The translations under genes were made by a program, and so were the position numbers. Below are positions 1-9,739 of a stretch of DNA of 9,739 nt, one piece after another. Source of the stretch: an uncultured Ruminococcus sp. (GTDB taxonomy: Bacteria; Bacillota_A; Clostridia; Oscillospirales; Ruminococcaceae); assembly GCA_902782875.1 (NCBI GenBank), contig CACZPE010000243.1, forward strand, positions 1 through 9,739. The letters are read 5' to 3'. A model generated the notes under the pieces. It was not told where the DNA came from. It saw nothing but the letters and a program-made list of their open reading frames with translations, and made no database searches. How positions within the stretch are numbered: the stretch's first letter is position 1; the number at the start of each line of letters is the position of its first letter.

Positions 1-1
1 C

Positions 2-88
2 ACGGGCAGGCTGGCCGGTACGACCGGCAGCGATTTCGCATATTTGTTTTATGGATGCGATACAGTTTGCGGCCCGGTTGTTTTATAA
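2..88 (+). CDS. Possible 3' end of an upstream gene (partial)
   Basis: One plus-strand frame is open from the window edge to a TAA at 86-88 and would encode about 28 residues ending GCDTVCGPVVL. A second frame is also open to a TGA at 91-93, so the frame choice is weak. No family can be recognised from so short a tail. The stretch also holds a small inverted repeat, GCCGGT-acg-ACCGGC (14-28), with no following T-run, so it is not a convincing terminator. The call rests only on the open frame and its position before the promoter at 101-129. Confidence 0.25.
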   Translation, partial: TGRLAGTTGSDFAYLFYGCDTVCGPVVL

Positions 89-100
89 GTTGATATCCGC

Positions 101-129
101 TTGACATATCTGCCCGGATGTAATACAAT
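101..129 (+). promoter_or_regulatory. Sigma-A promoter for the GNAT gene
   Basis: A perfect -35 TTGACA (101-106) lies exactly 17 bp from a -10 TACAAT (124-129). This is a strong housekeeping promoter by sequence. Transcription should start near 136, where a 5-bp inverted repeat ATCAG-acac-CTGAT (133-146) straddles the start and could be an operator. The resulting leader to the ATG at 219 is about 80 nt. Confidence 0.75.
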
Positions 130-154
130 TAAATCAGACACCTGATGATATACA

Positions 155-182
155 ACTCCACTCTCCACACTCCAAACTCCAC
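155..182 (+). repeat. Four tandem copies of heptamer ACTCCAC in the 5' leader
   Basis: Four consecutive 7-mers read ACTCCAC, TCTCCAC, ACTCCAA and ACTCCAC, with at most one mismatch each to the consensus. The repeat sits between the promoter and the ribosome site of the GNAT gene, in a leader that is nearly free of G from about 147 to 206. Such a leader should be poorly structured. Copy-number change would alter leader length but not a reading frame. Confidence 0.7.
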
Positions 183-218
183 ACTTACCAGACCCTAAAC
201 CCTATCAAAGGAGGCACT

Positions 219-1031
219 ATGCTTAAAGATCTCATTATCAGAGCCGAAAGGCCCGAGGACTACAAACAGACCGAACTTATGGCGATGCGCAGCTTCTGGA
301 ACAAGTTCTGGCCGGGAGCGACCGAGCATTTCCTTATCCGCATAGTAAGAGAATCCGCGGATTATATCCCCGGAATAAGCCGTGTGGCCGAGCTTGACGG
401 AAAGATCGTCGGGGCGGTGTATTATACAAAAGCATGGATCGCTGACGGCGACAGCAGATATGAGATAGCGACCTTCGGCCCCCTTGCGGTAGAGCCGACA
501 CTTGAGGGGAACGATATCGGCGGCGCACTTATGAGAGAGACGCTGAAGCTTGCGAAACAGGCAGGCATCAAAGCCGTAGCGCTTATGGGAGAACCGTATT
601 ATTACCCCAGATTCGGATTTGAAAGGGGTGCGGAGTACGGCATCACCGATATAGAGGGCAATACCTTTGATGCGCTTATGTACATGCCCCTGTGTGAAGA
701 GGCACGCTCTGTAAAGGGAAAGCTGATAGAGAGCGCTGACTTTGAAAAACTGGACGACGAAAAGAAGCTTGAGGAGATCAACAGGGAATTCCCGACCTAC
801 AGAAAGGTCAAGGTGCAGGAAGGTTTCATGCAGATTTTCGGGCAGCATATCGGCGTGGTCGAATCCGTTGAGGGCGATACATATATGGTGCGGTACTGGG
901 AGCTGCTGATTCCCGCAAAGCTTTCGGATACCGTGGAAAAGCCTTCGGCAGGCAGCGATGTTATATTCACATGGGACCGCAAAGGCACATCGCTTATAAC
1001 TAAGGTATTCAGAAACCTTCTGGATGAATGA
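219..1031 (+). CDS. GNAT-family N-acetyltransferase, YhbS-like with a C-terminal extension
   Basis: A 270-residue cytoplasmic protein predicted to transfer an acetyl group from acetyl-CoA to an unknown amine. The N-terminal ~160 residues form the GNAT domain: beta strand GPLAV (87-91) leads into the acetyl-CoA pyrophosphate loop EGNDIGGAL (96-104), and GEPYYYPRFGF (124-134) is the signature strand seen in YhbS/COG3153 proteins. YhbS proteins are usually near 170 residues. The extra ~105 residues (166-270) start with a charged helix (EKLDDEKKLEEI) and then look beta-rich; I do not recognise that domain. The start is fixed by AAAGGAGG (207-214), 4 nt before ATG. The gene has its own sigma-A promoter and is convergent with the serpin gene. 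The substrate cannot be inferred. Confidence 0.88.
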   Translation: MLKDLIIRAERPEDYKQTELMAMRSFWNKFWPGATEHFLIRIVRESADYIPGISRVAELDGKIVGAVYYTKAWIADGDSRYEIATFGPLAVEPTLEGNDIGGALMRETLKLAKQAGIKAVALMGEPYYYPRFGFERGAEYGITDIEGNTFDALMYMPLCEEARSVKGKLIESADFEKLDDEKKLEEINREFPTYRKVKVQEGFMQIFGQHIGVVESVEGDTYMVRYWELLIPAKLSDTVEKPSAGSDVIFTWDRKGTSLITKVFRNLLDE

Positions 1032-1042
1032 GTCACAAAACG

Positions 1043-1079
1043 AGATCACCGCATCTGTGATATGCAGATGCGGTGATCT
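1043..1079. terminator. Hairpin between convergent genes, probable terminator
   Basis: A perfect 15-bp stem (1043-1057 with 1065-1079) closes a 7-nt loop. It lies 11 nt after the GNAT stop and 42 nt after the serpin stop. On the minus strand the stem is followed by CGTTTTG, a short T-run fitting termination of the serpin operon. On the plus strand no T-run follows, so action in that direction would be weaker. Confidence 0.65.
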
Positions 1080-1121
1080 GTTCAGCGGCCGCGGATAAAT
1101 CCGATACCGCCTGCGGTACGG

Positions 1122-2741
1122 TTATTCGGGCATACTTACAGGCGTGTTGACTATACCTGTAAACACAGGCATACCCGTCTCGCTGACTATCTCAAATATA
1201 AACGGCTTGTCAAATGTGATGCTTATTTCGTCGGGGCTTATCTCCTCAAAGCCCTCGGTCATTTCTATTACAGTGTATGATGCAGCCTTGCAGCCGTCCT
1301 CATCGATCACTACCCTTGATGCCTGTTCAGCCTTGGTTATGGCGATATCACCGTCACAGAGAGGGGAGAAATCAGCCGTATTGGCGTCAAATGCATCGGT
1401 GATGCCCATTTTCTTCATGCCGTCGATAAGGTCTGTTTCGGATGACACATCAAATGCAGGCAGGGAGATATGGGTGCATGCCCTGATGCTGTCGTCATAA
1501 ACGGAACGCTTCATCATATAATCCATAGTTCTGCTGTCATTTATAAGCTCGCTGACAGTTACGCCGTCATCGGGAAGTATAAGGCGCACAGAACCGTTCC
1601 CCTCTATATCGAGGCTTACAGCAGCGAAGTTTTCGCCTCTGCAGAAGCTTGTGAGCATATCGCCGTTCAGGAAGTCACACTGTATATCACCGTCGGGAGC
1701 ATGGAATGTACCCTCTGCGGTACGTTCCTTATCAAAAGCTTCAGCCCATTTGCCGCTGTAATTGACGGTGGAAGCGAGTGTTAGCACCATATCGGGCGAC
1801 ATCCTGTGATCCTGTATGTTGTCTGAAAGAAGACCGTCGGTCTGCTCGTTTATCCAGTTTCTGAACATCTCGTTGTATTCATCGGATTCGGGCGAACCGC
1901 TGAATACAGATGCATAGTAGTTGTCGGAAACATTTTTTACGGTATCGGGATTATAGCTCTTGAGACGGTTTGTCCACATGGAGTTTGCAAGTATGCTCTT
2001 TGATGCACCGTCATCCATGAAATTTGCGAGCCATACCGATCTTGCGTGAGAGCGCAGAGTATCTATATCCTTCCCTGAAAGTGCATCGAGCAGCTGCTGT
2101 CTGGTGTTGCCGTCAGAGACCTCTGCAGTCATGGCAAGCGCCATGTACAGGCTCAGCGGGGAGTATACCCTGTTTTCGTTTCCCGCATCCGCAAGGAATA
2201 TCGGCGCACTGGCTGAAAAGAATTTGTCAAAGCCTTCATCATATCCCTCGGGCTGGTTCCTTACCGACCTTACCGAGTCATACCACGCATCAAACGGATC
2301 GACGGGATCTGACATATACGTGGATTCTTCCGCAAGGGCGGGATAGGGAGCCATTTCGGGATATACAGCCTTTGAAAGTACTGTCGCCTTGCCTGCGGGA
2401 ACAGATTTTGTTACACCTGATACTCCATAGGTCATAGTGTCGTCCTTGTCTGCAGGTATTTGTTCAGTTTCTGTAGGAACAAATTCGGTTTCTGGTAGCA
2501 CTTCATTGGGGATATTACCTGCAGACTGAGTCGTCGTGCCGCTGCCCGGTCTGTCTTTTATCACACTGATATCATCCGCATCATTCTTCGGCATCATTAT
2601 CACGCCGCATATCACCGCAGCGGCACACATACCGCCGAGTATTATCCATCTTGTTATGTTTTTCTTTTTCTGCTGCAGTGAGGGGATGAGTTTTTCATCT
2701 GTCTCACCTATCACATCCATAAGTATTTCGTTGTTTTTCAT
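1122..2741 (-). CDS. Membrane-anchored serpin with anti-sigma-like N-terminus
   Basis: A 539-residue protein in three parts. Residues 1-31 are cytoplasmic and charged, opening MKNNEILMDVIGETDEKLIP. Residues 32-50 form one transmembrane helix with K/R on the inner side (KKKNITRW), giving N-in topology. A Pro/Thr/Glu-rich extracellular linker (about 51-165) leads to a serpin domain (about 165-535). Serpin marks include YSPLSLYMALAM (193-204), NYSGKW (327-332), DFSPL (457-461), hinge EDGCKAASYT (481-490) and DKPFIFEI (511-518). Serpins trap serine or cysteine proteases by a conformational change after loop cleavage. P17 Glu, P15 Gly and Ala at P12-P11 suit an inhibitor; P14 Cys and P9 Tyr are unusual. 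Shutter His is replaced by Gln473. ATG overlaps the upstream ECF sigma stop (ATGA), with ribosome site GGAAGGG (2747-2753). The N-terminus resembles clostridial proteins encoded directly after ECF sigma genes, so an anti-sigma role is inferred, not proven. Confidence 0.93.
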   Translation of the reverse strand: MKNNEILMDVIGETDEKLIPSLQQKKKNITRWIILGGMCAAAVICGVIMMPKNDADDISVIKDRPGSGTTTQSAGNIPNEVLPETEFVPTETEQIPADKDDTMTYGVSGVTKSVPAGKATVLSKAVYPEMAPYPALAEESTYMSDPVDPFDAWYDSVRSVRNQPEGYDEGFDKFFSASAPIFLADAGNENRVYSPLSLYMALAMTAEVSDGNTRQQLLDALSGKDIDTLRSHARSVWLANFMDDGASKSILANSMWTNRLKSYNPDTVKNVSDNYYASVFSGSPESDEYNEMFRNWINEQTDGLLSDNIQDHRMSPDMVLTLASTVNYSGKWAEAFDKERTAEGTFHAPDGDIQCDFLNGDMLTSFCRGENFAAVSLDIEGNGSVRLILPDDGVTVSELINDSRTMDYMMKRSVYDDSIRACTHISLPAFDVSSETDLIDGMKKMGITDAFDANTADFSPLCDGDIAITKAEQASRVVIDEDGCKAASYTVIEMTEGFEEISPDEISITFDKPFIFEIVSETGMPVFTGIVNTPVSMPE

Positions 2742-3286
2742 ATTATCCCTTCCTTTTCAAAATGCTCCTTCAGTCTCCTGCGTGTGCGTGAAAGCGTCAT
2801 CTTCACCGCACCCTCGGATATGCCGCAGCGCTTGGCTATATCGCTTACGGGCATCATATACCAGTAGCGGTAAAGGAATATATCTCTGTTCTTTTCGGGC
2901 AGACCGTACAGGTATGTGTTGAGCATATCCCTGAGTGCTATCCTGTCCTCTATGGGGCTTTCCTCGCCGATGCACTCACTGAGCTCATCAAGACACAGTG
3001 CTGTCTGGCCGCCGCCGCATTTCTGCGACCTGTCCTTTCTGTATCTGTCTATGGCCAGATTTCTTGTTATCCTGCCGAAAAATACTGCCAGCCTGTTCGG
3101 GCGTTCGGGCGGCATAGCGTTCCATGCACGCATCCATGTGTCATTGACACATTCCTCCGTATCCTCAGCAGAATGTATGATATTCCTTGCTATTGTGCTG
3201 CAGTAAGGACCGTATTTTGTGTCGCTCTCGCTGATGGCGGATTCATCCCTCTTCCAATAGAGCTCTATTATTCCGCTGTCCTCCAT
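2738..3286 (-). CDS. ECF-type RNA polymerase sigma factor
   Basis: A 182-residue extracytoplasmic-function sigma-70 factor, normal length for the family. Region 2 covers about residues 10-88, with the core-binding DTEECVNDTWMRAWN (42-56) and the -10-reading FFGRITRNLAIDRYRK (69-84). Region 4 covers about 118-176, with the LPEKNRDIFLYRYWY helix (129-143) and the helix-turn-helix DIAKRCGISEGAVKMTLSRTRRRL (149-172) that reads the -35. Start ATG (3286-3284) is preceded by GGAGGTG (3291-3297). It overlaps the membrane serpin by 4 nt, so the two should be translationally coupled. Two promoters precede it: a sigma-A one and an ECF-type one that matches the promoter of the other serpin gene, suggesting autoregulation. 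The partner and target assignments are inferred from gene order and promoter likeness. Confidence 0.93.
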   Translation of the reverse strand: MEDSGIIELYWKRDESAISESDTKYGPYCSTIARNIIHSAEDTEECVNDTWMRAWNAMPPERPNRLAVFFGRITRNLAIDRYRKDRSQKCGGGQTALCLDELSECIGEESPIEDRIALRDMLNTYLYGLPEKNRDIFLYRYWYMMPVSDIAKRCGISEGAVKMTLSRTRRRLKEHFEKEGII

Positions 3287-3318
3287 ATTGCACCTCCGCT
3301 TTCTGTTTCATACATAAG

Positions 3319-3345
3319 GACGGAAAAAACGTGTCAAAGGTAACA
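3319..3345 (-). promoter_or_regulatory. ECF-type promoter of the sigma-serpin operon
   Basis: On the minus strand, TGTTACCTTT starts at 3345 and CGTC ends at 3319, with 16 nt between TGTTACC and CGTC. This matches the general ECF layout (AAC-type -35, CGT-type -10, about 16-nt spacer). The same two boxes at exactly the same distance precede the upstream serpin gene. Transcription would start about 25 nt before the sigma ATG, still including the ribosome site at 3291-3297. Confidence 0.7.
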
Positions 3346-3374
3346 CCCGATCCGAAAATATGAAAAACATATAT

Positions 3375-3403
3375 ATTATACCATAAAGCAGTACCAATCT
3401 CAA
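3375..3403 (-). promoter_or_regulatory. Sigma-A promoter of the sigma-serpin operon
   Basis: On the minus strand, -35 TTGAGA (3403-3398) is 17 bp from a consensus -10 TATAAT (3380-3375), with a TG at the extended -10 position. It lies about 30 nt upstream of the ECF-type promoter and could supply basal sigma and anchor protein before induction. Confidence 0.75.
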
Positions 3404-3441
3404 GACATAGGTGATAAAAAACTGGCGCGTGCAAAGCCTGC

Positions 3442-4929
3442 TTATACGGGATCATTGACTACGCCTACAAAGAGAGGTGTGTCTGTCTCGCTCATTATCT
3501 CAAAGATAAACGGTCTGTCAAATTTTATCTTGCCTATGGATTCATATCCACCGTCGGAATCCGGTATAGCAAATGCGGTAGTATAAGCAGCAGCCCTGCA
3601 ACCGTTTTCATCTATCAAAGTCCTTGAGTCCTGCGAAGCCTTGCCTATGAAGATATCATCCGCATCAGACAGCGGGCTGAAATCGGAGACACTCGCATCA
3701 AAAGCATCTGTTATGCCCATCTCTTTCAGGCCGTCGATAAGGTCTGTATGTGAAGATATATCAAACTTCGGTACGGATATTTCGGCCCAGACAGTCTGTA
3801 TAGGTTCGCAGTCAGACGGCATAAGCATATATTCAAGCACATCTGCCTGTATCTCTTTGATATGTCCGTGCTCAAATCCGCACTCACACGGCTCCCATAC
3901 TATGGTGTCGGGATCGGCAGGTTCGCCGGGCTTTCTGCAGGCAGCGATAAGTCCGGCCGGGGATATGCCTTCGGCAGGCAGGATAAGTCTCATTTCGCCG
4001 TTGTTTTCAAGCGGCAGTATCACAGATGTGAAATCCTTGCCGTTATAGTATCCGACATTCCTGGAGCCGTTGAGAAATTCGGTCGTTATATCTCCCGCAG
4101 GAGAGCGGAAAACATCTTTTTCGGTTAGACCAGTATAAAACCAGTCTGACCATCTTCCGCTGTAGTTTATCGTTGAGGCAAGAACAAGTATCATCTGAGG
4201 ATCCATACGGATATTCTCAGCATGACCCGACAGCAGACCGTCGGTCTGACTGTTGAGCCAGCTGCTGAACAGTGCGTTGTATTCATCGGATTCGGGATCA
4301 CCGCTGTATGCTGAGGCATAGTAATTGTCTGCTATTGTGTCCATTATCCAGGGATTACAGGTGATCTTGTCAGAAGCCCAGAGCGAATTTGCAAGAACGG
4401 ACCTCGATACGCCGTCATCGAAATAGTTGATTTCCCATAATGCCTTTGCGTTTTTTCGCAGGGCTTTGATATCAGGCTGCCCGAGGGCATCGAGTATCTG
4501 CTGACGGGTATTTCCGTTTGTGATCTCTGCGGTCATTCCGAGCGCAAGGAAAAGGCTGAGAGGGGAATATACCGTGTTGTCGGAGGTATCTGTTATAAAT
4601 GTGCGGGTACTGTTACGGAAGAAAGGAGCAAAGCCCTCCCTGCATCCGTCGGGCACGCTGTGCCGCTTTTCTACTGCAGACTGCCACTCTTTATACTGCT
4701 GTTTGTATTTATTTATGTTTGCACTAGAGAATTCGGGATACTGCGGGATATCGGGGTATTCCGCAGATGCGAGTACTGTCGGCTGTTTTGCGCCCGCGGC
4801 ATCGGGAGATGTTGCGGATACCATGTTCTGTGCGCATCCCGGCAGGAAGAGCCCGCCTATGAGAGAAACGGCATAAAGTCCGCCGAGAGCATATTTTGCT
4901 GCATGAGATATGTTTGTTCTGTTTTTCAT
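3442..4929 (-). CDS. Serpin lipoprotein
   Basis: A 495-residue exported protease-inhibitor candidate and paralogue of the membrane serpin. Residues 1-31 form a lipoprotein signal peptide: basic N-terminus, hydrophobic core, then LPGC with Cys32 as the lipidation site. A linker contains TVLASAEYPDIPQYP (51-65), which matches the pre-serpin segment of the neighbour. The serpin domain (about 97-495) carries YSPLSLFLALGM (121-132), NYSGRW (255-260), hinge ENGCRAAAYT (441-450) and DRPFIFEI (471-478). By canonical counting from P17 Glu441 the bond is Asp457-Ser458, within AIPDSD, but the loop is about five residues longer than in alpha-1-antitrypsin. Residues 334-376 are an insertion absent from the neighbour. 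I chose ATG at 4929 over the longer frame from 5082 because AAAGAAGG (4938-4945) precedes it and the signal peptide begins there; the ECF promoter also lies inside the longer frame. Confidence 0.92.
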   Translation of the reverse strand: MKNRTNISHAAKYALGGLYAVSLIGGLFLPGCAQNMVSATSPDAAGAKQPTVLASAEYPDIPQYPEFSSANINKYKQQYKEWQSAVEKRHSVPDGCREGFAPFFRNSTRTFITDTSDNTVYSPLSLFLALGMTAEITNGNTRQQILDALGQPDIKALRKNAKALWEINYFDDGVSRSVLANSLWASDKITCNPWIMDTIADNYYASAYSGDPESDEYNALFSSWLNSQTDGLLSGHAENIRMDPQMILVLASTINYSGRWSDWFYTGLTEKDVFRSPAGDITTEFLNGSRNVGYYNGKDFTSVILPLENNGEMRLILPAEGISPAGLIAACRKPGEPADPDTIVWEPCECGFEHGHIKEIQADVLEYMLMPSDCEPIQTVWAEISVPKFDISSHTDLIDGLKEMGITDAFDASVSDFSPLSDADDIFIGKASQDSRTLIDENGCRAAAYTTAFAIPDSDGGYESIGKIKFDRPFIFEIMSETDTPLFVGVVNDPV

Positions 4930-4975
4930 AAAGTCTGCCTTCTTTCCTTTGTTTTTGAAGTCCTTCACAAGTAAA

Positions 4976-5002
4976 GACGCAAACGACATACAAAAGGTAA
5001 CA
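4976..5002 (-). promoter_or_regulatory. ECF-type promoter of the serpin lipoprotein gene
   Basis: On the minus strand, TGTTACCTTT starts at 5002 and CGTC ends at 4976, again 16 nt between TGTTACC and CGTC. The first ten bases and the CGTC position are identical to the promoter before the sigma gene, while the spacers differ. The start would fall near 4968, giving a leader of about 40 nt to ATG 4929. I saw no good sigma-A promoter for this gene on this strand, so it may depend on the ECF factor. Confidence 0.7.
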
Positions 5003-5009
5003 GGAGATA

Positions 5010-5023
5010 GGAAAAATTTTTCC
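5010..5023. repeat. 14-bp perfect A/T palindrome upstream of the ECF promoter
   Basis: GGAAAAATTTTTCC is a perfect palindrome ending 8 nt upstream of the -35 box of the serpin lipoprotein promoter (minus strand). Its A- and T-runs could act as an UP-like element or bent DNA, or as an operator. There is no equivalent before the sigma gene. Confidence 0.5.
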
Positions 5024-5145
5024 GCAGATGCAGCTTGTTTATCGCGGCCATAACACATTTTTTCGCAGATAATGCATATCATACAATGGGATCGGGAGTT
5101 TTATGTATAATGTGACGAAAATATGAAATATAATTCAAACACATG

Positions 5146-5174
5146 TTGAAAAACACGTTGAAATTTGATATAAT
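5146..5174 (+). promoter_or_regulatory. Sigma-A promoter of the acyltransferase-CDF operon
   Basis: TTGAAA (5146-5151) lies 17 bp from a consensus TATAAT (5169-5174), with TG at the extended -10 position. Two direct repeats, ACATGTTGAAA (5141-5151) and ACACGTTGAAA (5153-5163), 12 nt apart, overlap the -35 and spacer and may be a regulator site. The start should be near 5181, about 55 nt before ATG 5237. Confidence 0.75.
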
Positions 5175-5236
5175 GGTGAATATTAAGTTAATTGTAAGCG
5201 CGTGCTTATAAAATTCTGACAACAGGAGGTCCGGAT

Positions 5237-6511
5237 ATGAAATACAGCATGGATACCTACAGATTATATGCAAGTGAAAAGATATTCTCATTTGTGATCA
5301 GAATAAGGGTGACTATGAAGGAGAATGTAGATATCGATATTCTGCGTCATGCGGTCAATGCTGCCATAAAGCGGTATCCGTACTTTTCCGTCGAAGTGGT
5401 ACACGGCGAAGACGGCGGATATGATCTTATCCCGAACAGCAGAGAGATAGTGGTCATCACGACTTCATCAAAGCTGCCTGATCTGTGCACCGATGAAGTG
5501 AACAGACATATGCTTTACGTAGACTGTGAAGGACGGGATATCTACTTCAATATCAGTCATTCCATGTGCGGCGGCAGAGGTGCGCTTCCGTGGGTGATGA
5601 CGAATATATACCAGTACGTTGTCGAGAGATATGGCGTTGTCCCTGATGCCCCGGGTATAAGAAAACCCGACAGTGAGCTTTTTGAGGATGAGGTCACAGA
5701 GCCGTCCCTTGATATGCTTTCGGATGATGAACCGATATATGAGTACAAGAGCAGAAAGCCCGTGGTCATGATGCTTGACTATCTCAACGGTATGTATAAT
5801 CCGTTTAAGAGGGACCCGAATTATTATGTATTTACCTTTGCGCAGAAGGATATCATTTCATACGCCAAAAGAAATGATTCAAGTGTCGCAGCTTTCTTTC
5901 TTACGGCTATGGCAAAAGCACTCGATAAGGTGCTGCCTGAGAAATATCAGGTTATAGGAGGAGAAGTTGCGCATAATCCTGCGGCAGATATAGGTCTTCC
6001 GAATTCGCATCATGATCTTCTGACACATGTGCATATAGACTATGACAGAAAATATCTCAGAGAGAATATGGACAAGCTGGGTACACTGACCCGCGGTCAG
6101 ATAATTCTTCAGACAGACAGGACGGTCGTTGACAAAGAGCTTCGCAGGACTTTTACACACTGGGGCAGTATCGACAACGCAACAGGGCTGAAAAACAAAA
6201 TTGCCTGCAATGCAAAGAACGATCCGTCACAGGGCAAGGATGCACAGCATGGTACATTCATATCAAATTACTCCGGATGGATGGACTGGGGCGAGGTTGC
6301 TGATTATGTGGAATCATACGTGATCATAGTTGAAGGGCATCTGCTGCTTGAGGTGACTTCTTTGGCGGATAAGATATTTGTATCATTCATGCAGCTGATC
6401 AGAGAGACAAAGTATGTTGATGCATTCGGCAAAGTAATGGAGGAACTGGATATACCGTACAGGACCGAGGGCCCGTTCCCCAAGAATCAGCCCAGGCACA
6501 GGCTGCCGTAA
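5237..6511 (+). CDS. Condensation/alcohol-acetyltransferase-fold protein
   Basis: A 424-residue soluble protein resembling the chloramphenicol-acetyltransferase-like fold shared by alcohol acetyltransferases, wax-ester synthases and NRPS condensation domains. The N-terminal half has the expected order: DILRHAVNAAIKRYPYF (34-50), then strand DIYFNISHSMCGGRGALPW (101-119), which aligns with the active-site HxxxDG region. Here the six residues are HSMCGG (108-113): His108 and the last Gly are kept, but the Asp is Gly. Near the C-terminus, SNYSGWMDWGE (343-353) sits where a structural DFGWG-like segment is expected. Family members pass acyl groups to alcohols or amines; the substrate is unknown. 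The start is supported by AGGAGGT (5224-5230). It is first in an operon with a membrane acyltransferase, so a role in acylating an envelope glycan or lipid is possible but inferred. Confidence 0.72.
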   Translation: MKYSMDTYRLYASEKIFSFVIRIRVTMKENVDIDILRHAVNAAIKRYPYFSVEVVHGEDGGYDLIPNSREIVVITTSSKLPDLCTDEVNRHMLYVDCEGRDIYFNISHSMCGGRGALPWVMTNIYQYVVERYGVVPDAPGIRKPDSELFEDEVTEPSLDMLSDDEPIYEYKSRKPVVMMLDYLNGMYNPFKRDPNYYVFTFAQKDIISYAKRNDSSVAAFFLTAMAKALDKVLPEKYQVIGGEVAHNPAADIGLPNSHHDLLTHVHIDYDRKYLRENMDKLGTLTRGQIILQTDRTVVDKELRRTFTHWGSIDNATGLKNKIACNAKNDPSQGKDAQHGTFISNYSGWMDWGEVADYVESYVIIVEGHLLLEVTSLADKIFVSFMQLIRETKYVDAFGKVMEELDIPYRTEGPFPKNQPRHRLP

Positions 6512-6548
6512 AATCATTTGTTCATAAGATATGACAGTCAGCTGTATA

Positions 6549-6575
6549 TCACCCGCAGGATCGTTCTGCGGGTGA
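6549..6575 (+). other. Intergenic RNA hairpin without a U-tract
   Basis: A perfect 10-bp stem TCACCCGCAG (6549-6558) pairs with 6566-6575 around a 7-nt loop. It lies between the two acyltransferase genes, 38 nt after the first stop and 30 nt before the second start. No T-run follows, so it is more likely an mRNA stabiliser or processing element than a terminator. Confidence 0.6.
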
Positions 6576-6604
6576 CAAACGGCGGCTGATGAGGGGGTAT
6601 AATA

Positions 6605-7732
6605 ATGGCAGACAGAGCGGAGAGACAGTCAAATATAGAACTGCTCAGAATTGTGGCTGCACTGGGAGTTATAGTGCTACACTACAACAATCCCTCTATC
6701 GGAGGAGGATATAAAGCCGTTGCGGACGGAAGTATAAATCAGCTTGTGATGACGGTATCCGAGGCTGCATTTATATGTGCAGTCAACCTGTTTGTGCTCA
6801 TAACGGGCTATTTTATGAAAAACTCATCAAAGAGGGATCTGCTGAAACCCATAGAGTTATTTGCCCAGCTTGCAGTGTTTGAGACGGCGTTTTATCTTAT
6901 AAAGGAGCTTCCCAAGGGAGAGCCATTCTCTTTCGGAAGGTTTATGAGCTATTATACACCGAGCTACTGGTTTGTATTTGTATATATAGCATTGTATCTC
7001 ATATCGCCGTATATAAACTCGGTATGGGCGCGCCTTGATGCAAAAGGGAAAAAGACTCTGCTGTGCATATCCCTGGGGCTGTTTTCGGTATATCCCATAG
7101 CATGGGAGGCTGTGACAAATCTATCCGCATCGGGTATATGGGGCGAGGACAAGGTCAGCTGGTACGGTCTGGAGCAGGGCATCAGCACTCTGGGGCTTTT
7201 CGGCTCGCAGGCGGGATACAGCATCGTGAATTTTGTGCTGATGTATATGATAGGCTGCTATCTCAGGGACAGAGAAGATGATATCGCTAAGACAGGCGAA
7301 GGAAAACTAATACTGCTTTATATACTGAATATTGCTCTGATAGTCGGCTGGACTTATCTTGACAAGGCGATATCGGGAGCACCTATCAACACGACAACAG
7401 GCTGGAATTATGAGAATCCCCTTGTTATATCGGAAGCAGTGCTGCTGTTTATGATATTCAAAAACGCTCATATAAAACAAAGCAAAATCATAAACAGGAT
7501 AGCGGCTGCTTCGTTCCCCTCATATCTCATCCACAAGAATCTGCTGGAGTATGCAGGTATAGAGAACGCGGTACGGGGAAGCACTCCTCTGCTTGTGTTG
7601 CATATTGCGGCAAGTACGCTGATCATATATCTGATAAGCTTTGTCATATATGAGATATATAACCTTATTGCAAGGCCTGTGTTTGCAAAGATATCCGCTA
7701 AGTGGAAGGATCACAGGACATATACCGTTTGA
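6605..7732 (+). CDS. Acyltransferase-3 family integral membrane O-acyltransferase
   Basis: A 375-residue multi-pass membrane protein of the acyltransferase-3 (OafA/WecH-like) family, which moves acetyl or other acyl groups onto exported sugars and polymers. The opening SNIELLRIVAALGVIVLHY (9-27) is the typical first helix and carries the family R-x10-H motif as Arg15 to His26. Further hydrophobic helices are visible around 45-70, 84-101, 120-136, 151-170, 196-219, 234-252, 272-287, 300-320 and 328-352, about ten in all and normal for the family. The terminal segment AKWKDHRTYTV is cytoplasmic in character. The start follows GAGGGGG (6591-6597) by 7 nt. It lies 93 nt after the condensation-fold gene and 51 nt before the CDF gene, so co-transcription is likely. 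The acceptor is unknown. Confidence 0.88.
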   Translation: MADRAERQSNIELLRIVAALGVIVLHYNNPSIGGGYKAVADGSINQLVMTVSEAAFICAVNLFVLITGYFMKNSSKRDLLKPIELFAQLAVFETAFYLIKELPKGEPFSFGRFMSYYTPSYWFVFVYIALYLISPYINSVWARLDAKGKKTLLCISLGLFSVYPIAWEAVTNLSASGIWGEDKVSWYGLEQGISTLGLFGSQAGYSIVNFVLMYMIGCYLRDREDDIAKTGEGKLILLYILNIALIVGWTYLDKAISGAPINTTTGWNYENPLVISEAVLLFMIFKNAHIKQSKIINRIAAASFPSYLIHKNLLEYAGIENAVRGSTPLLVLHIAASTLIIYLISFVIYEIYNLIARPVFAKISAKWKDHRTYTV

Positions 7733-7783
7733 TCCGGAAATATACTGACCGGTATGAATAAAAGAAAGGTGACAGGATAAAAC

Positions 7784-8908
7784 ATGCAGAGTACTGATAT
7801 ATCAAGAGAAAAAACTATCGTAAGGACAAGCATCATCGGAATAGCCGCGAATGTTCTTCTGGCGGTATTCAAGGCTGTGATCGGGTTTATGACAAATTCC
7901 ATTGCCATCATGCTGGATGCTGTGAATAATATCTCCGATGCAGGCAGCTCGGTAATAACCATAGCAGGCACAAAGCTTGCGGCCAAGGAGCCCGATAAAA
8001 AACATCCCTTCGGGTACGGGCGCGTTGAATATCTCAGTGCAATGGTGATATCGGTGATAGTGCTGTATGCGGGTATTACCTCCTTTGTGGAATCCGTAAA
8101 GAAGATCATCGCTCCCGAAACTCCGGATTACAGCGTGATATCTCTTGTTATAGTGGCTGTTGCGGTAGCGGTCAAGATCATACTCGGCAGATATGTAAAG
8201 AGCGTCGGCGTGAAGGTAAATTCCGACTCCCTTATAAACTCCGGTGAGGACGCCACCCTGGACTCTGTGATATCTGCATCAACTTTAGTCGCTGCAATAG
8301 TATTTCTTGTTTTTCACATATCTCTGGAGGCATGGCTGGGAGCGGTCATATCCCTGGTAATAGTAAAATCAGGGCTTGATATGCTCAGGGGCACGATATC
8401 ACAGATACTCGGAGAACGCAATGACGCAGATCTTGCAAAGGCAATCAAGGATACCATAAGAGAATTCCCCGGCGTGCAGGGGGCCTATGATCTTGTACTC
8501 AACAACTACGGCCCTGATACATGGAACGGCTCGGCTCATATAGCAGTACCCGACACATACACCGCTGACATGCTTGACAAGCTTATACGCGAGATCACCG
8601 TGAAGGTGCTTGCAGAGCATAAGGTCATGCTGACGGCGATAGGGATATACTCGATAAACACAAAAGATGAGAGTATAATCCGCATAAGGGAGCGGGTAAG
8701 CGAGATCGCTCTTTCGCATGAACATGTGAAGCAGATTCACGGCTTCTATCTGGATAAGGAAAACAGGACCATGCGTTTTGATGTGCTGATAAGCTTTAAC
8801 GCAGATGACCGCAGGGCGGTATATGCAGATGTTGTCGCGGATGTTCAGAAGGAATATCCAGATTATGAGCTGCAGATAGCAATGGATACCGATTTTTCGG
8901 AGAAGTGA
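7784..8908 (+). CDS. Cation diffusion facilitator, probable Mn2+/divalent metal exporter
   Basis: A 374-residue CDF transporter expelling divalent cations in exchange for protons. Six membrane helices occupy about residues 12-205. The metal site reads N48-x3-D52 in helix 2 (NNISD) and D156-x3-D160 in helix 5 (DATLD), rather than the H/D-x3-D and H-x3-D of zinc exporters. As I recall, an Asn plus three Asp set is typical of manganese exporters such as MntE, so Mn2+ is the best guess. HPFGYGR (74-80) is the conserved loop after helix 2. The C-terminal cytoplasmic dimerisation domain (about 210-292) is followed by a second region of similar pattern (about 298-374), making the protein longer than the usual ~300 residues. 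Ribosome site GAAAGGTGA (7764-7772). The 51-nt gap before it is too short for a manganese riboswitch. Confidence 0.9.
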   Translation: MQSTDISREKTIVRTSIIGIAANVLLAVFKAVIGFMTNSIAIMLDAVNNISDAGSSVITIAGTKLAAKEPDKKHPFGYGRVEYLSAMVISVIVLYAGITSFVESVKKIIAPETPDYSVISLVIVAVAVAVKIILGRYVKSVGVKVNSDSLINSGEDATLDSVISASTLVAAIVFLVFHISLEAWLGAVISLVIVKSGLDMLRGTISQILGERNDADLAKAIKDTIREFPGVQGAYDLVLNNYGPDTWNGSAHIAVPDTYTADMLDKLIREITVKVLAEHKVMLTAIGIYSINTKDESIIRIRERVSEIALSHEHVKQIHGFYLDKENRTMRFDVLISFNADDRRAVYADVVADVQKEYPDYELQIAMDTDFSEK

Positions 8909-8975
8909 AAATGTGGGGTTAGGCTGAGTAGGGCCACCGAAATGGAACAATCCACAAAAGCCGTGATATAGCTAA

Positions 8976-9006
8976 AAGAGCCTAGCTAGAAGTTAACTAG
9001 GCTCTT
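8976..9006 (-). terminator. Transposase terminator hairpin
   Basis: A perfect 10-bp stem (8976-8985 with 8997-9006) closes an 11-nt loop that contains the transposase TAG. On the minus strand the stem ends in CTCTT and continues TTAG, a short T-run. In its present position it would also lie about 70 nt after the CDF stop and could fold in that transcript. Confidence 0.55.
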
Positions 9007-9181
9007 CAGTCTGTCGAATAACCCCTGATTCGCAGATGAATCAGGGGTTAAGCATATATTTACGCTGAAATAGGGTGTAAAAATGCAAAAAAGCGAAAAA
9101 CAATTCTCCTTCCACTTGTGAACTGCATACTTTTTCAGATTCATGGCAGCAAATTTAAGCCTAACCCAGTTTGTGACCTGA
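8986..9181 (-). pseudogene. C-terminal fragment of an IS1182-like transposase
   Basis: Reading the minus strand from about 9181 to the TAG at 8988-8986 gives about 64 residues: VTNWVRLKFAAMNLKKYA near the start and ending DRLKSLVNF. The first segment is like the C-terminal helix of IS1182-type DDE transposases, where a tract similar to LKFAAMNLKKLA is common. The catalytic domain and N-terminus are missing. The open frame continues past 9181, but only as the antisense of the adjoining gene fragment, with no transposase-like sequence. It is a dead remnant. A 13-bp inverted repeat (9019-9031 with 9038-9050) lies within its coding part. Confidence 0.65.
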
Positions 9182-9628
9182 GATAAGAAAGAGCTTGAAG
9201 AGAGGATAGAATTCGAGAAGGATCTGATAGAACGATATCCGGAATTCATGGAGCTGTGGAACAAGGATAAGTTGACTCCGAGGGAAACCACAAGGCTCGG
9301 CACATTTCAGGTGCTAATCAACCAAGATATGTATGAAGACGGCAAGCTGCTTGAACACCAGCAAGAACTGAAAAAGCTCGAAAAGGAACTGGCTTCCGTA
9401 GAAAAGCAGATCCCGGGGCTTAAGGACAAGAGAGACACCGCTGCGAGCAATTACAGTCACTATCTGAACATTATGGAGACCGATTTTGACAGGATCCTTA
9501 AGCGAAAGCAGCAGGAGAAAGAAGAAAGAGAACGGGCAGAGGAGCTCAGGAGAGAAATGGAGCGTCTGGAAATGGAAATGTACCGACAGTCGCAGCGTCG
9601 CGACACATGGTCATATGACGGGAGGTGA
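9182..9628 (+). pseudogene. 5'-truncated coiled-coil protein fragment
   Basis: An open frame begins directly at the IS junction, after an in-frame TGA at 9179-9181, and runs to TGA 9626-9628, about 148 residues. It starts DKKELEERIEFEKDLIERYP, which is already in mid-helix, with no ribosome site or plausible start before the Met at 9248. That internal ATG also lacks a good ribosome site, so the true start was lost. The middle (LTPRETTRLGTFQVLINQ) could be a small globular part. From about residue 55 it is a long charged heptad-like coiled coil ending in an E/R-rich helix. I do not recognise the family; such tails occur in mobilisation and plasmid proteins, which fits the IS context but is a guess. 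Confidence 0.55.
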
Positions 9629-9629
9629 T
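9621..9629 (+). promoter_or_regulatory. Stranded Shine-Dalgarno sequence
   Basis: GGAGGTGAT overlaps the stop codon of the coiled-coil fragment and is a near-perfect ribosome site. No ATG, GTG or TTG with an open frame follows at 5-12 nt. It probably served a co-translated downstream gene now deleted. Confidence 0.5.
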
Positions 9630-9640
9630 TTAAGGCATTA

Positions 9641-9739
9641 TTACTGTAAAACCGTCCTCATATATACGGTTCCGTTTTTATTCTCTGTCTCTTCAAATCC
9701 CATTTTCCTGTACAGACTATATGCTACCGGCATTACATC
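9641..9739 (-). CDS. C-terminus of a GNAT-family acetyltransferase (partial)
   Basis: The minus strand is open from the window edge to TAA at 9643-9641 and encodes 32 residues including AYSLYRKMGFEE and ending VYMRTVLQ. The A-x-x-LYRKMGF segment followed by a short strand and MRTVL is the usual last helix and strand of GNAT acetyltransferases. The active domain lies outside the window, so the substrate cannot be judged. The gene is convergent with the coiled-coil fragment, 12 nt away. Confidence 0.8.
   Translation of the reverse strand, partial: DVMPVAYSLYRKMGFEETENKNGTVYMRTVLQ

Follow-up and report, generated by a model that had tools for sequence, protein, structure and literature searches.

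Can a protease inhibitor act as the receptor of a bacterial sigma factor switch? The question is raised by a 9,739-nucleotide stretch of DNA from an uncultured Ruminococcus sp. (GenBank assembly GCA_902782875.1, contig CACZPE010000243.1, positions 1 to 9,739; hereafter the window), in which the gene for an extracytoplasmic function (ECF) sigma factor overlaps the gene for a serpin with a single transmembrane (TM) helix, here called the TM-serpin. Serpins trap proteases and act through a one-shot conformational change. A sequence-only reading of the window had proposed that the second gene is anti-sigma-like and that its serpin domain senses proteases. Having followed up this proposal by comparative analysis, we consider it probable that the TM-serpin is a membrane anti-sigma factor with the serpin as its extracellular sensor, part of a protease-sensing circuit that yields more protease inhibitor. 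Such a circuit may let gut and rumen Clostridia detect proteases that attack them, by offering a bait, and respond with more inhibitor.

Architecture of the sigma factor/TM-serpin operon

Three successive genes on the minus strand encode a lipoprotein-type serpin, the ECF sigma factor and the TM-serpin; all positions given below for these genes, their parts and their promoters are on that strand. The sigma factor (2738-3286; 182 residues) carries Sigma70 regions 2 and 4 only, as is typical of ECF sigma factors of about 180 residues. Its stop codon overlaps the start of the TM-serpin gene (1122-2741; 539 residues) by 4 nt (ATGA), as the sequence-only reading had stated, and the order of parts it had described for the product, namely a cytoplasmic N-terminus of about 31 residues, one TM helix, a linker and a full serpin domain, was confirmed. 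The cytoplasmic tail, a putative short anti-sigma domain with a conserved L..xIGxxDExLI motif, here VIGETDEKLI (residues 1-31; 2649-2741), leads into a TM helix with a Lys/Arg-rich N-terminal side, consistent with an N-in orientation (residues 32-50; 2592-2648). Outside the membrane follow a Pro/Thr/Glu-rich linker that is variable among relatives (residues 51-118; 2388-2591), a conserved segment that we call the strap, LxxAxYPEMxxYP (residues 119-134; 2340-2387), and the serpin domain (residues 185-534; 1140-2189) with its reactive-centre loop (residues 481-504; 1230-1301). A gene beside that of its sigma factor, encoding an N-terminal cytoplasmic part before one TM helix, is the usual layout of ECF anti-sigma factors. 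Pfam searches found the serpin domain in both serpins of the window (E = 7.2e-54 and 4.2e-48). Among the matches listed, the closest relative of the TM-serpin is P0001 (98%); P0002, from an Oscillospiraceae metagenome-assembled genome, stands at 60%.

Linkage to the sigma factor gene follows the cytoplasmic tail

A protein search returned 684 relatives of the TM-serpin. When the N-termini of the best 120 were inspected by eye, all were found to start with a tail of the window type and a TM helix, except P0002, whose N-terminus is cut, P0119, which begins after the TM helix, and P0060, where the resemblance is weak. A scan of species-representative genomes yielded 76 loci, all but three of which (L069, L074 and L075) are titled Clostridia or other Bacillota, many of them from rumen or gut; L006, for example, comes from the rumen isolate Ruminococcus sp. 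YE71 and carries the pair. In these loci and the window, an ECF sigma open reading frame (ORF) lies directly upstream of 60 of the 63 tail-bearing serpins (only a partial one in L001 and L015) and directly downstream of two (L047 and L050), the last being cut by the contig end, whereas none of the 12 tail-less full-length serpins with upstream DNA stands directly behind a sigma gene; eight fragments or contig-cut serpins without a readable tail belong to neither group, and close kinship between many of the loci means that the counts are not independent. An overlap of exactly 4 nt between the two genes was seen in at least 45 of 57 pairs, this set being defined by a sigma ORF of more than 150 residues (L001, L015 and L068 fall outside it) and serving also for the promoter counts below; two of the 57 have less than 130 nt of upstream DNA.

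A second sample was chosen regardless of neighbouring genes. It comprised 119 genomes of one family, 27 of which matched at E <= 1e-20, giving 41 matches; from these, 20 regions with 21 serpin ORFs were picked for long profile coverage. All three tail-bearing serpins lie behind a sigma gene with a 4-nt overlap, compared with none of the 18 tail-less ones, bearing in mind that L157, one of the three, and L025 probably represent a single locus and that eight of the 18 come from one genome (G107). The sigma/TM-serpin pair is a recurrent arrangement, not a one-off, and linkage to the sigma gene goes with the tail, not with the serpin domain. The recurrence in other genomes that the sequence-only reading had put forward as a check was borne out in both samples. 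A freely varying N-terminus and a serpin unlinked to the sigma gene, which it had named as grounds for giving up the idea, were also looked for; the tail is conserved, the linkage follows it, and the idea survived.

Variations on the arrangement were seen. In L047 (4782-6916) and L050 (195-2402) the order is reversed, with the TM-serpin gene first and the ECF sigma gene 26 and 9 nt downstream, respectively; in L050 a clade-type -10 element precedes the serpin gene. The sigma gene before the TM-serpin gene is incomplete or frame-broken in L001 (titled Ruminococcus flavefaciens strain YRD2003), L015 and L068. In L063 (6027-8926) and L065 (from 6264), the TM-serpin gene is followed by a second ECF sigma gene and then by a gene for a protein of 763 (L063) or 904 (L065) residues with a related tail (MRTKEERLLDVIGDTKDRNV).

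Partners with other ectodomains carry related tails

A profile of the tail and TM helix (A2), run on six genomes, gave 16 matches at E <= 0.01, comprising six TM-serpins and ten other proteins, and each of the latter ten has an ECF sigma gene immediately before its own. When the profile was restricted to the cytoplasmic part, all 58 serpin partners scored above the best of 1,933 background ORFs. Of the 20 non-serpin partners belonging to the same sigma clade (defined by a sigma profile E < 1e-40), most of which had been found through the tail profile and are therefore biased towards the tail, 15 exceeded the background 99th percentile; none of ten partners of other ECF sigma factors did. In genome G006, where 18 of 19 sigma region-2 matches were covered and were picked by sigma factor rather than by tail (L107, L110 and L112 having no countable partner), all eight clade partners passed the 99th percentile, or seven of seven without the serpin pair that had led to this genome, versus none of the seven other partners. 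The ectodomains differ among these paralogous partners. As judged by sequence comparison, the tail is typical of the sigma clade, but not universal at this sensitivity.

We also compared how the parts diverge. Distances between sigma factors correlate with those between the 30-residue tails across 58 non-redundant pairs (r = 0.81, p = 0.001; the largest value in 999 permutations was 0.19), which is support rather than proof, because co-inheritance of overlapping genes yields part of the correlation. For the 39 serpin pairs taken separately the coefficient is 0.885, compared with 0.483 between sigma factors and serpin domains; the 19 non-serpin pairs give 0.63. A tail of 30 residues that tracks the sigma factor better than the attached 400 residues do is what would be expected of a modular sigma-binding domain, and the tail is probably a modular anti-sigma domain. 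From the sequence comparisons we infer that it binds and inhibits its cognate sigma factor.

These results bear on two other accounts of the tail. It might serve as an anchor only, the TM-serpin being a membrane-bound inhibitor co-transcribed with an unrelated or self-limiting sigma factor. A surface inhibitor is plausible in itself, as related genomes have lipoprotein or secreted serpins without a sigma gene, but the tail is conserved over 30 residues and related to those found on non-serpin partners within this sigma clade, and both the closer co-divergence and the linkage go with the tail; we regard this account as very unlikely. Alternatively, the tail might activate or tether the sigma factor as a positive regulator. 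Synteny cannot separate activation from inhibition, and we give this alternative hardly any credence.

The tail does not fall into an established anti-sigma family. Its residues 1-42 have no Pfam match at E <= 10, and for the whole TM-serpin only PF00079 was found at E <= 0.1, with no RsgI_N or other anti-sigma Pfam domain reported. At about 31 residues, with no Cys, no His and no Pfam match, it lacks the features of zinc-binding or class I anti-sigma domains, which average 101 residues (PMC7406223; the literature is cited throughout from excerpts of the named articles) and often have a Cys/His zinc site; the same article kept domains of less than 50 residues apart as potential class II members. 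To the very short cytoplasmic domains of class II anti-sigma factors of the CnrY type (PMC7406223) it bears a resemblance by length alone. No SigI model appeared among the best 25 of 84 NCBIfam matches of the sigma factor. DUF4179, the site-1 region of RsiV (PMC6066255), was not reported by Pfam in the TM-serpin. The anti-sigma part of the sequence-only reading is thus strengthened by co-divergence and by the related tails that, attached to other ectodomains, lie behind sigma genes of this clade, and its comparison with RsgI is reduced to an analogy, no RsgI_N having been reported.

A Pfam search of 15 non-serpin partners found nothing over the cut-off except DUF4179 in L096, a partner of the same sigma clade, at 30.5 bits versus a cut-off of 30.1; its tail scores 0.5 bits. 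On contig C26 of G006 (L108; 97000-109000), four ECF sigma/tail-protein pairs lie within 12 kb, each with a 4-nt overlap and with partners of different lengths, a natural set for studying sigma/anti-sigma specificity.

A shared promoter suggests serpins as output

An ECF-type element, GTTACC-N16-CGTC, lies before the sigma gene of the window (3319-3344). Its general form, GTTACY-N16-YGTC, was found upstream of the sigma gene in 27 of the 57 pairs (Markov control mean 0.02), with a spacer of 16 in all 27 though 15-17 was allowed, and looks like a sigma promoter that is probably autoregulatory. A second, related promoter type is present in 12 of the other 30 pairs (control 0.16). Within the window, the exact pattern GTTACCN{15,17}CGTC occurs twice against 0.03 expected. 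The second copy (4976-5001) stands about 47 bp before the start codon of the other serpin gene (3442-4929), which lies directly upstream of the sigma gene and encodes a probable lipoprotein (MKNRT...GGLFLPGC); its long ORF begins at 5082, and translation is likely to start from the Met codon at 4929, MKNRTNISHAAKYALGGLYAVSLIGGLFLPGC. This gene is a predicted target of the sigma factor, and the promoter it shares suggests serpins as an output of the system. Similar sites were seen at two other loci: in L040, GTTACT-N16-CGTC precedes a tail-less serpin gene beside the pair, and in L060 a stretch nearly identical to the locus's own sigma promoter lies more than 100 bp before the adjacent tail-less serpin ORF.

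If serpins are output, the serpin of the TM-serpin might itself be an effector. The protein would then be a true anti-sigma factor whose serpin is protective, the sigma factor being freed by another cue such as envelope stress acting on the linker. All evidence for the anti-sigma role applies equally here, the lipoprotein serpin with the same promoter fits well, and RsiV, too, is inhibitory in its own right (PMC5014341). We nevertheless consider this explanation unlikely, since the ectodomains vary among paralogous clade partners, as expected of sensors, and an effector on the anti-sigma factor would be redundant beside the separate lipoprotein serpin.

The serpin domain, its hinge and the strap

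The ectodomain has the serpin fold and a full-length PF00079 match, placing it in the serpin superfamily. AlphaFold2 models (ectodomain mean predicted local distance difference test, pLDDT, score of 89) can be superposed on solved serpin structures, with cleaved or latent forms fitting best. In the reactive-centre loop of the window protein, the hinge EDGCKAASYT has small residues at P14, P12, P10 and P8, and residues 490-497 are disordered in the model. Across 82 aligned sequences, P17 is Glu in 82, P15 Gly in 82, P14 Cys in 82, P12 Ala in 81, P10 Ser or Ala in 82 and P8 Thr in 80. These positions are conserved, so that the side chains to be buried on loop insertion are small. In the wider protein set, where the search pattern demanded D-E-x-G (the P17 and P15 counts come from the 82-sequence alignment), P14 is Cys and P9 is Leu, Met, Val, Ile or an aromatic residue in 119 of 119 readable homologues. 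In the genome loci, P14 is Cys in 54 of the 56 tail-bearing serpins that could be read and in 8 of 11 others, counts that are not independent because one of the scan patterns was IDE[ED]GC[KR]A. Compared with the hinge consensus for P17-P9, ExGTEAAAA (PMC8233489), Cys replaces Thr/Ser at P14 and P9 is bulky; given these two departures, inhibitory competence of the TM-serpin is likely, judging from the hinge sequence, and not proven. Past the hinge the loop is variable, often Gly/Ala-rich around P1, a composition that would suit elastase- or subtilisin-like proteases.

The P14 Cys (residue 484; window 1290-1292, minus strand) is unusual, and thiol chemistry or redox control at this position is possible. 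A disulfide between Cys484 and Cys355 was considered and set aside: both are conserved in TM-serpins, but the lipoprotein serpin retains only the P14 Cys.

Just before the serpin, the strap, LAxAxYPEMPxYP among relatives, has Tyr127 in 80 and Pro128 in 81 of 82 sequences and is modelled with high confidence as a strand (block 120-129, pLDDT 91). Native tengpin, when structurally aligned with either model, is matched from the strap onwards, beginning at tengpin residue 36. The strap is reached by the range of this structural alignment and not by the listed HMMER alignments to tengpin. For a few antithrombin chains, too, the structural alignment begins nearby, and most other structural-match rows leave the strap uncovered. 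The strap joins the serpin to the membrane, which makes loss of its docking on relaxation an attractive candidate route for a signal. It is also present in the lipoprotein serpin; hence it is not specific to signalling, and its primary role may be structural.

A signal-peptidase site in the strap was also considered, as LAxA|xYP resembles A-x-A (102 of 115 readable sequences among 120 homologues, by a loose criterion). It was rejected, and the strap read as structural, because 14 of 82 sequences have Pro in place of the last Ala, the distance to the TM helix ranges from 14 to 157 residues, and the lipoprotein serpin shares the strap.

Proposed mechanism and the evidence that weighs against it

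In the circuit that we propose, the tail of about 31 residues would hold the ECF sigma factor encoded by the overlapping gene, as the comparisons above suggest, while the serpin would present its reactive loop outside the cell as bait. An attacking protease would be trapped or would cleave the loop, and either way, judging from the hinge and the serpin family, the serpin would pass from the stressed to the relaxed state. This change, or the bulk of the captured protease, could be transmitted through strap, linker and TM helix. The analogy of RsiV and RsiP (PMC6066255, PMC8844934) suggests that the signal would lead to cleavage at site 1 and site 2, with intramembrane proteolysis or release of the tail then freeing the sigma factor. 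The freed sigma factor would then transcribe its own operon from GTTACC-N16-CGTC, in line with the conservation of that element, and, as the promoter copies suggest, would drive an extra tail-less serpin here and at two other loci.

How the protease is registered allows two versions. In the first, the serpin is a spring-loaded, one-shot receptor: attack on the loop would drive the stressed-to-relaxed transition, and its energy, passed on by strap and TM helix, would free the sigma factor for the synthesis of sensor and further serpin. We find this version attractive, with confidence slightly short of even. In the second, binding of the protease would suffice, by steric exposure or covalent capture as in RsiV, where ligand binding leads to site-1 cleavage by signal peptidase (PMC5014341, PMC6066255), and loop insertion would not be needed. 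The hinge is conserved at positions buried on insertion, which mere binding would not require, and we view this second version as possible but doubtful; as a variant of the same explanation, its probability overlaps with that of the first.

Several observations weigh against the protease-sensing anti-sigma reading as a whole, in addition to the relatedness of the counted loci, the share of co-inheritance in the correlation, the hinge departures and the strap of the lipoprotein serpin described above. Since no known anti-sigma domain matches the tail, the case for an anti-sigma role is built on synteny and co-divergence. In genome G003, of whose 19 sigma matches six were covered, none of three non-serpin clade partners passes the 99th percentile (2.1, 0.4 and -0.6 bits), although their N-termini look related by eye. 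At L005 (7405-7917), the partner of an ECF sigma factor on the margin of the clade looks zinc-finger-like by eye (MNTKCSIIEDLIPLYKECLCSEDT...) and is not a tail protein. Neither promoter type was found in 18 of the 57 pairs. With up to two mismatches the window has eight matches against 4.8 expected, and only the two exact copies count because this is no clear excess. The promoter was present at three of ten inspected tail-less serpin genes, which are three of the five beside a sigma/TM-serpin pair; none was seen before the tail-less serpins of L051 and L062 (adjacent to the pair) or of L048, L055, L056, L057 and L069. In ten related genomes the pattern was not enriched over its reversed control, and the 30 sites inspected of 40 included eight sigma promoters and no clear candidate among the others.

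An attempt to read a whole-genome regulon from the promoter pattern was abandoned, as there was no excess over the reversed pattern and the clear sites were sigma promoters only.

Relation to known systems

The sigma-V/RsiV system of Bacillus subtilis likewise pairs an ECF sigma factor with an anti-sigma factor in the membrane; the ectodomain of the latter binds the signal enzyme and inhibits it, and the regulon of the system confers resistance to that enzyme (PMC5014341). RsiV is both receptor and inhibitor of lysozyme; signal peptidase cuts it only when lysozyme is present, and RasP acts thereafter (PMC5014341, PMC6066255). In the window, by contrast, the ectodomain is a serpin rather than an RsiV fold, the ligand would be a protease, and the conformational change would be one-shot. 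RsgI/SigI of Clostridium thermocellum and its relatives offers a membrane anti-sigma factor with interchangeable sensory ectodomains (carbohydrate-binding modules and others) in cellulolytic Clostridia (PMC12484212, PMC3413522); here the signal would be a protease, not a polysaccharide. By analogy, RsiV is a closer precedent than RsgI for the TM-serpin.

On the serpin side, tengpin of Thermoanaerobacter tengcongensis is the best solved-structure sequence match of the TM-serpin. In tengpin, the native state is stabilised by an N-terminal tail that docks near strand s1A (PMC8233489, section 14); unlike for the TM-serpin, no TM helix or sigma link is mentioned in that excerpt. Functionally, the circuit comes closest to that of the serpin of Bifidobacterium breve, whose expression is protease-induced and autoregulated, as cited in PMC8012564; there, sensing involves a two-component system beside the serpin operon, whereas here the serpin itself would be the receptor for an ECF sigma factor. 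PinA of C. thermocellum and the dockerin-serpins of R. flavefaciens are also extracellular serpins of plant-fibre Clostridia, with a proposed role in cellulosome protection (PMC5301203, PMC12484212). They differ in being dockerin-borne, and the tail-less serpins counted here have no sigma gene directly upstream (0/12 and 0/18).

Serpins and anti-sigma factors appear as separate items in the excerpts of PMC12484212, PMC3413522 and PMC3990059. In agreement with the sequence-only reading, which knew of no serpin-based sigma switch, we found none described among the open-access papers listed for serpins with anti-sigma, ECF or sigma factors, a scope that does not include the 2021 ECF reclassification. 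The new element would be the type of receptor, a protease trap, on an anti-sigma factor that is RsiV-like in principle; we did not find it described. If the proposed circuit is real, bacterial serpins gain a signalling role with a direct assay (protease in, promoter read out), and the principle of RsiV, in which the inhibitor is the receptor, extends to proteases. It would also define in Clostridia a short modular anti-sigma tail with interchangeable ectodomains, provide a spring-loaded protease biosensor for engineering, and represent an inhibitor-as-receptor pathway for protease sensing repeated across many gut Clostridia. It suggests how rumen and gut bacteria may notice the proteases of hosts or rivals.

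Other features of the window

A housekeeping-type promoter-like site, TTGAGA-N17-TATAAT (3375-3403, minus strand), could serve as a basal promoter; sites of this kind are no more frequent in the region than expected by chance. Behind the operon lies a strong-looking, intrinsic-terminator-like hairpin of 15 pairs (1043-1079, minus strand). Searches for plasmid origins and Rfam families returned no match. On the plus strand, positions 5237-6511 encode a 424-residue protein with nothing over the cut-off in Pfam, NCBIfam or PHROGs, and the gene after it (6605-7732, plus strand) encodes a membrane protein of the acyltransferase-3 family (PF01757).

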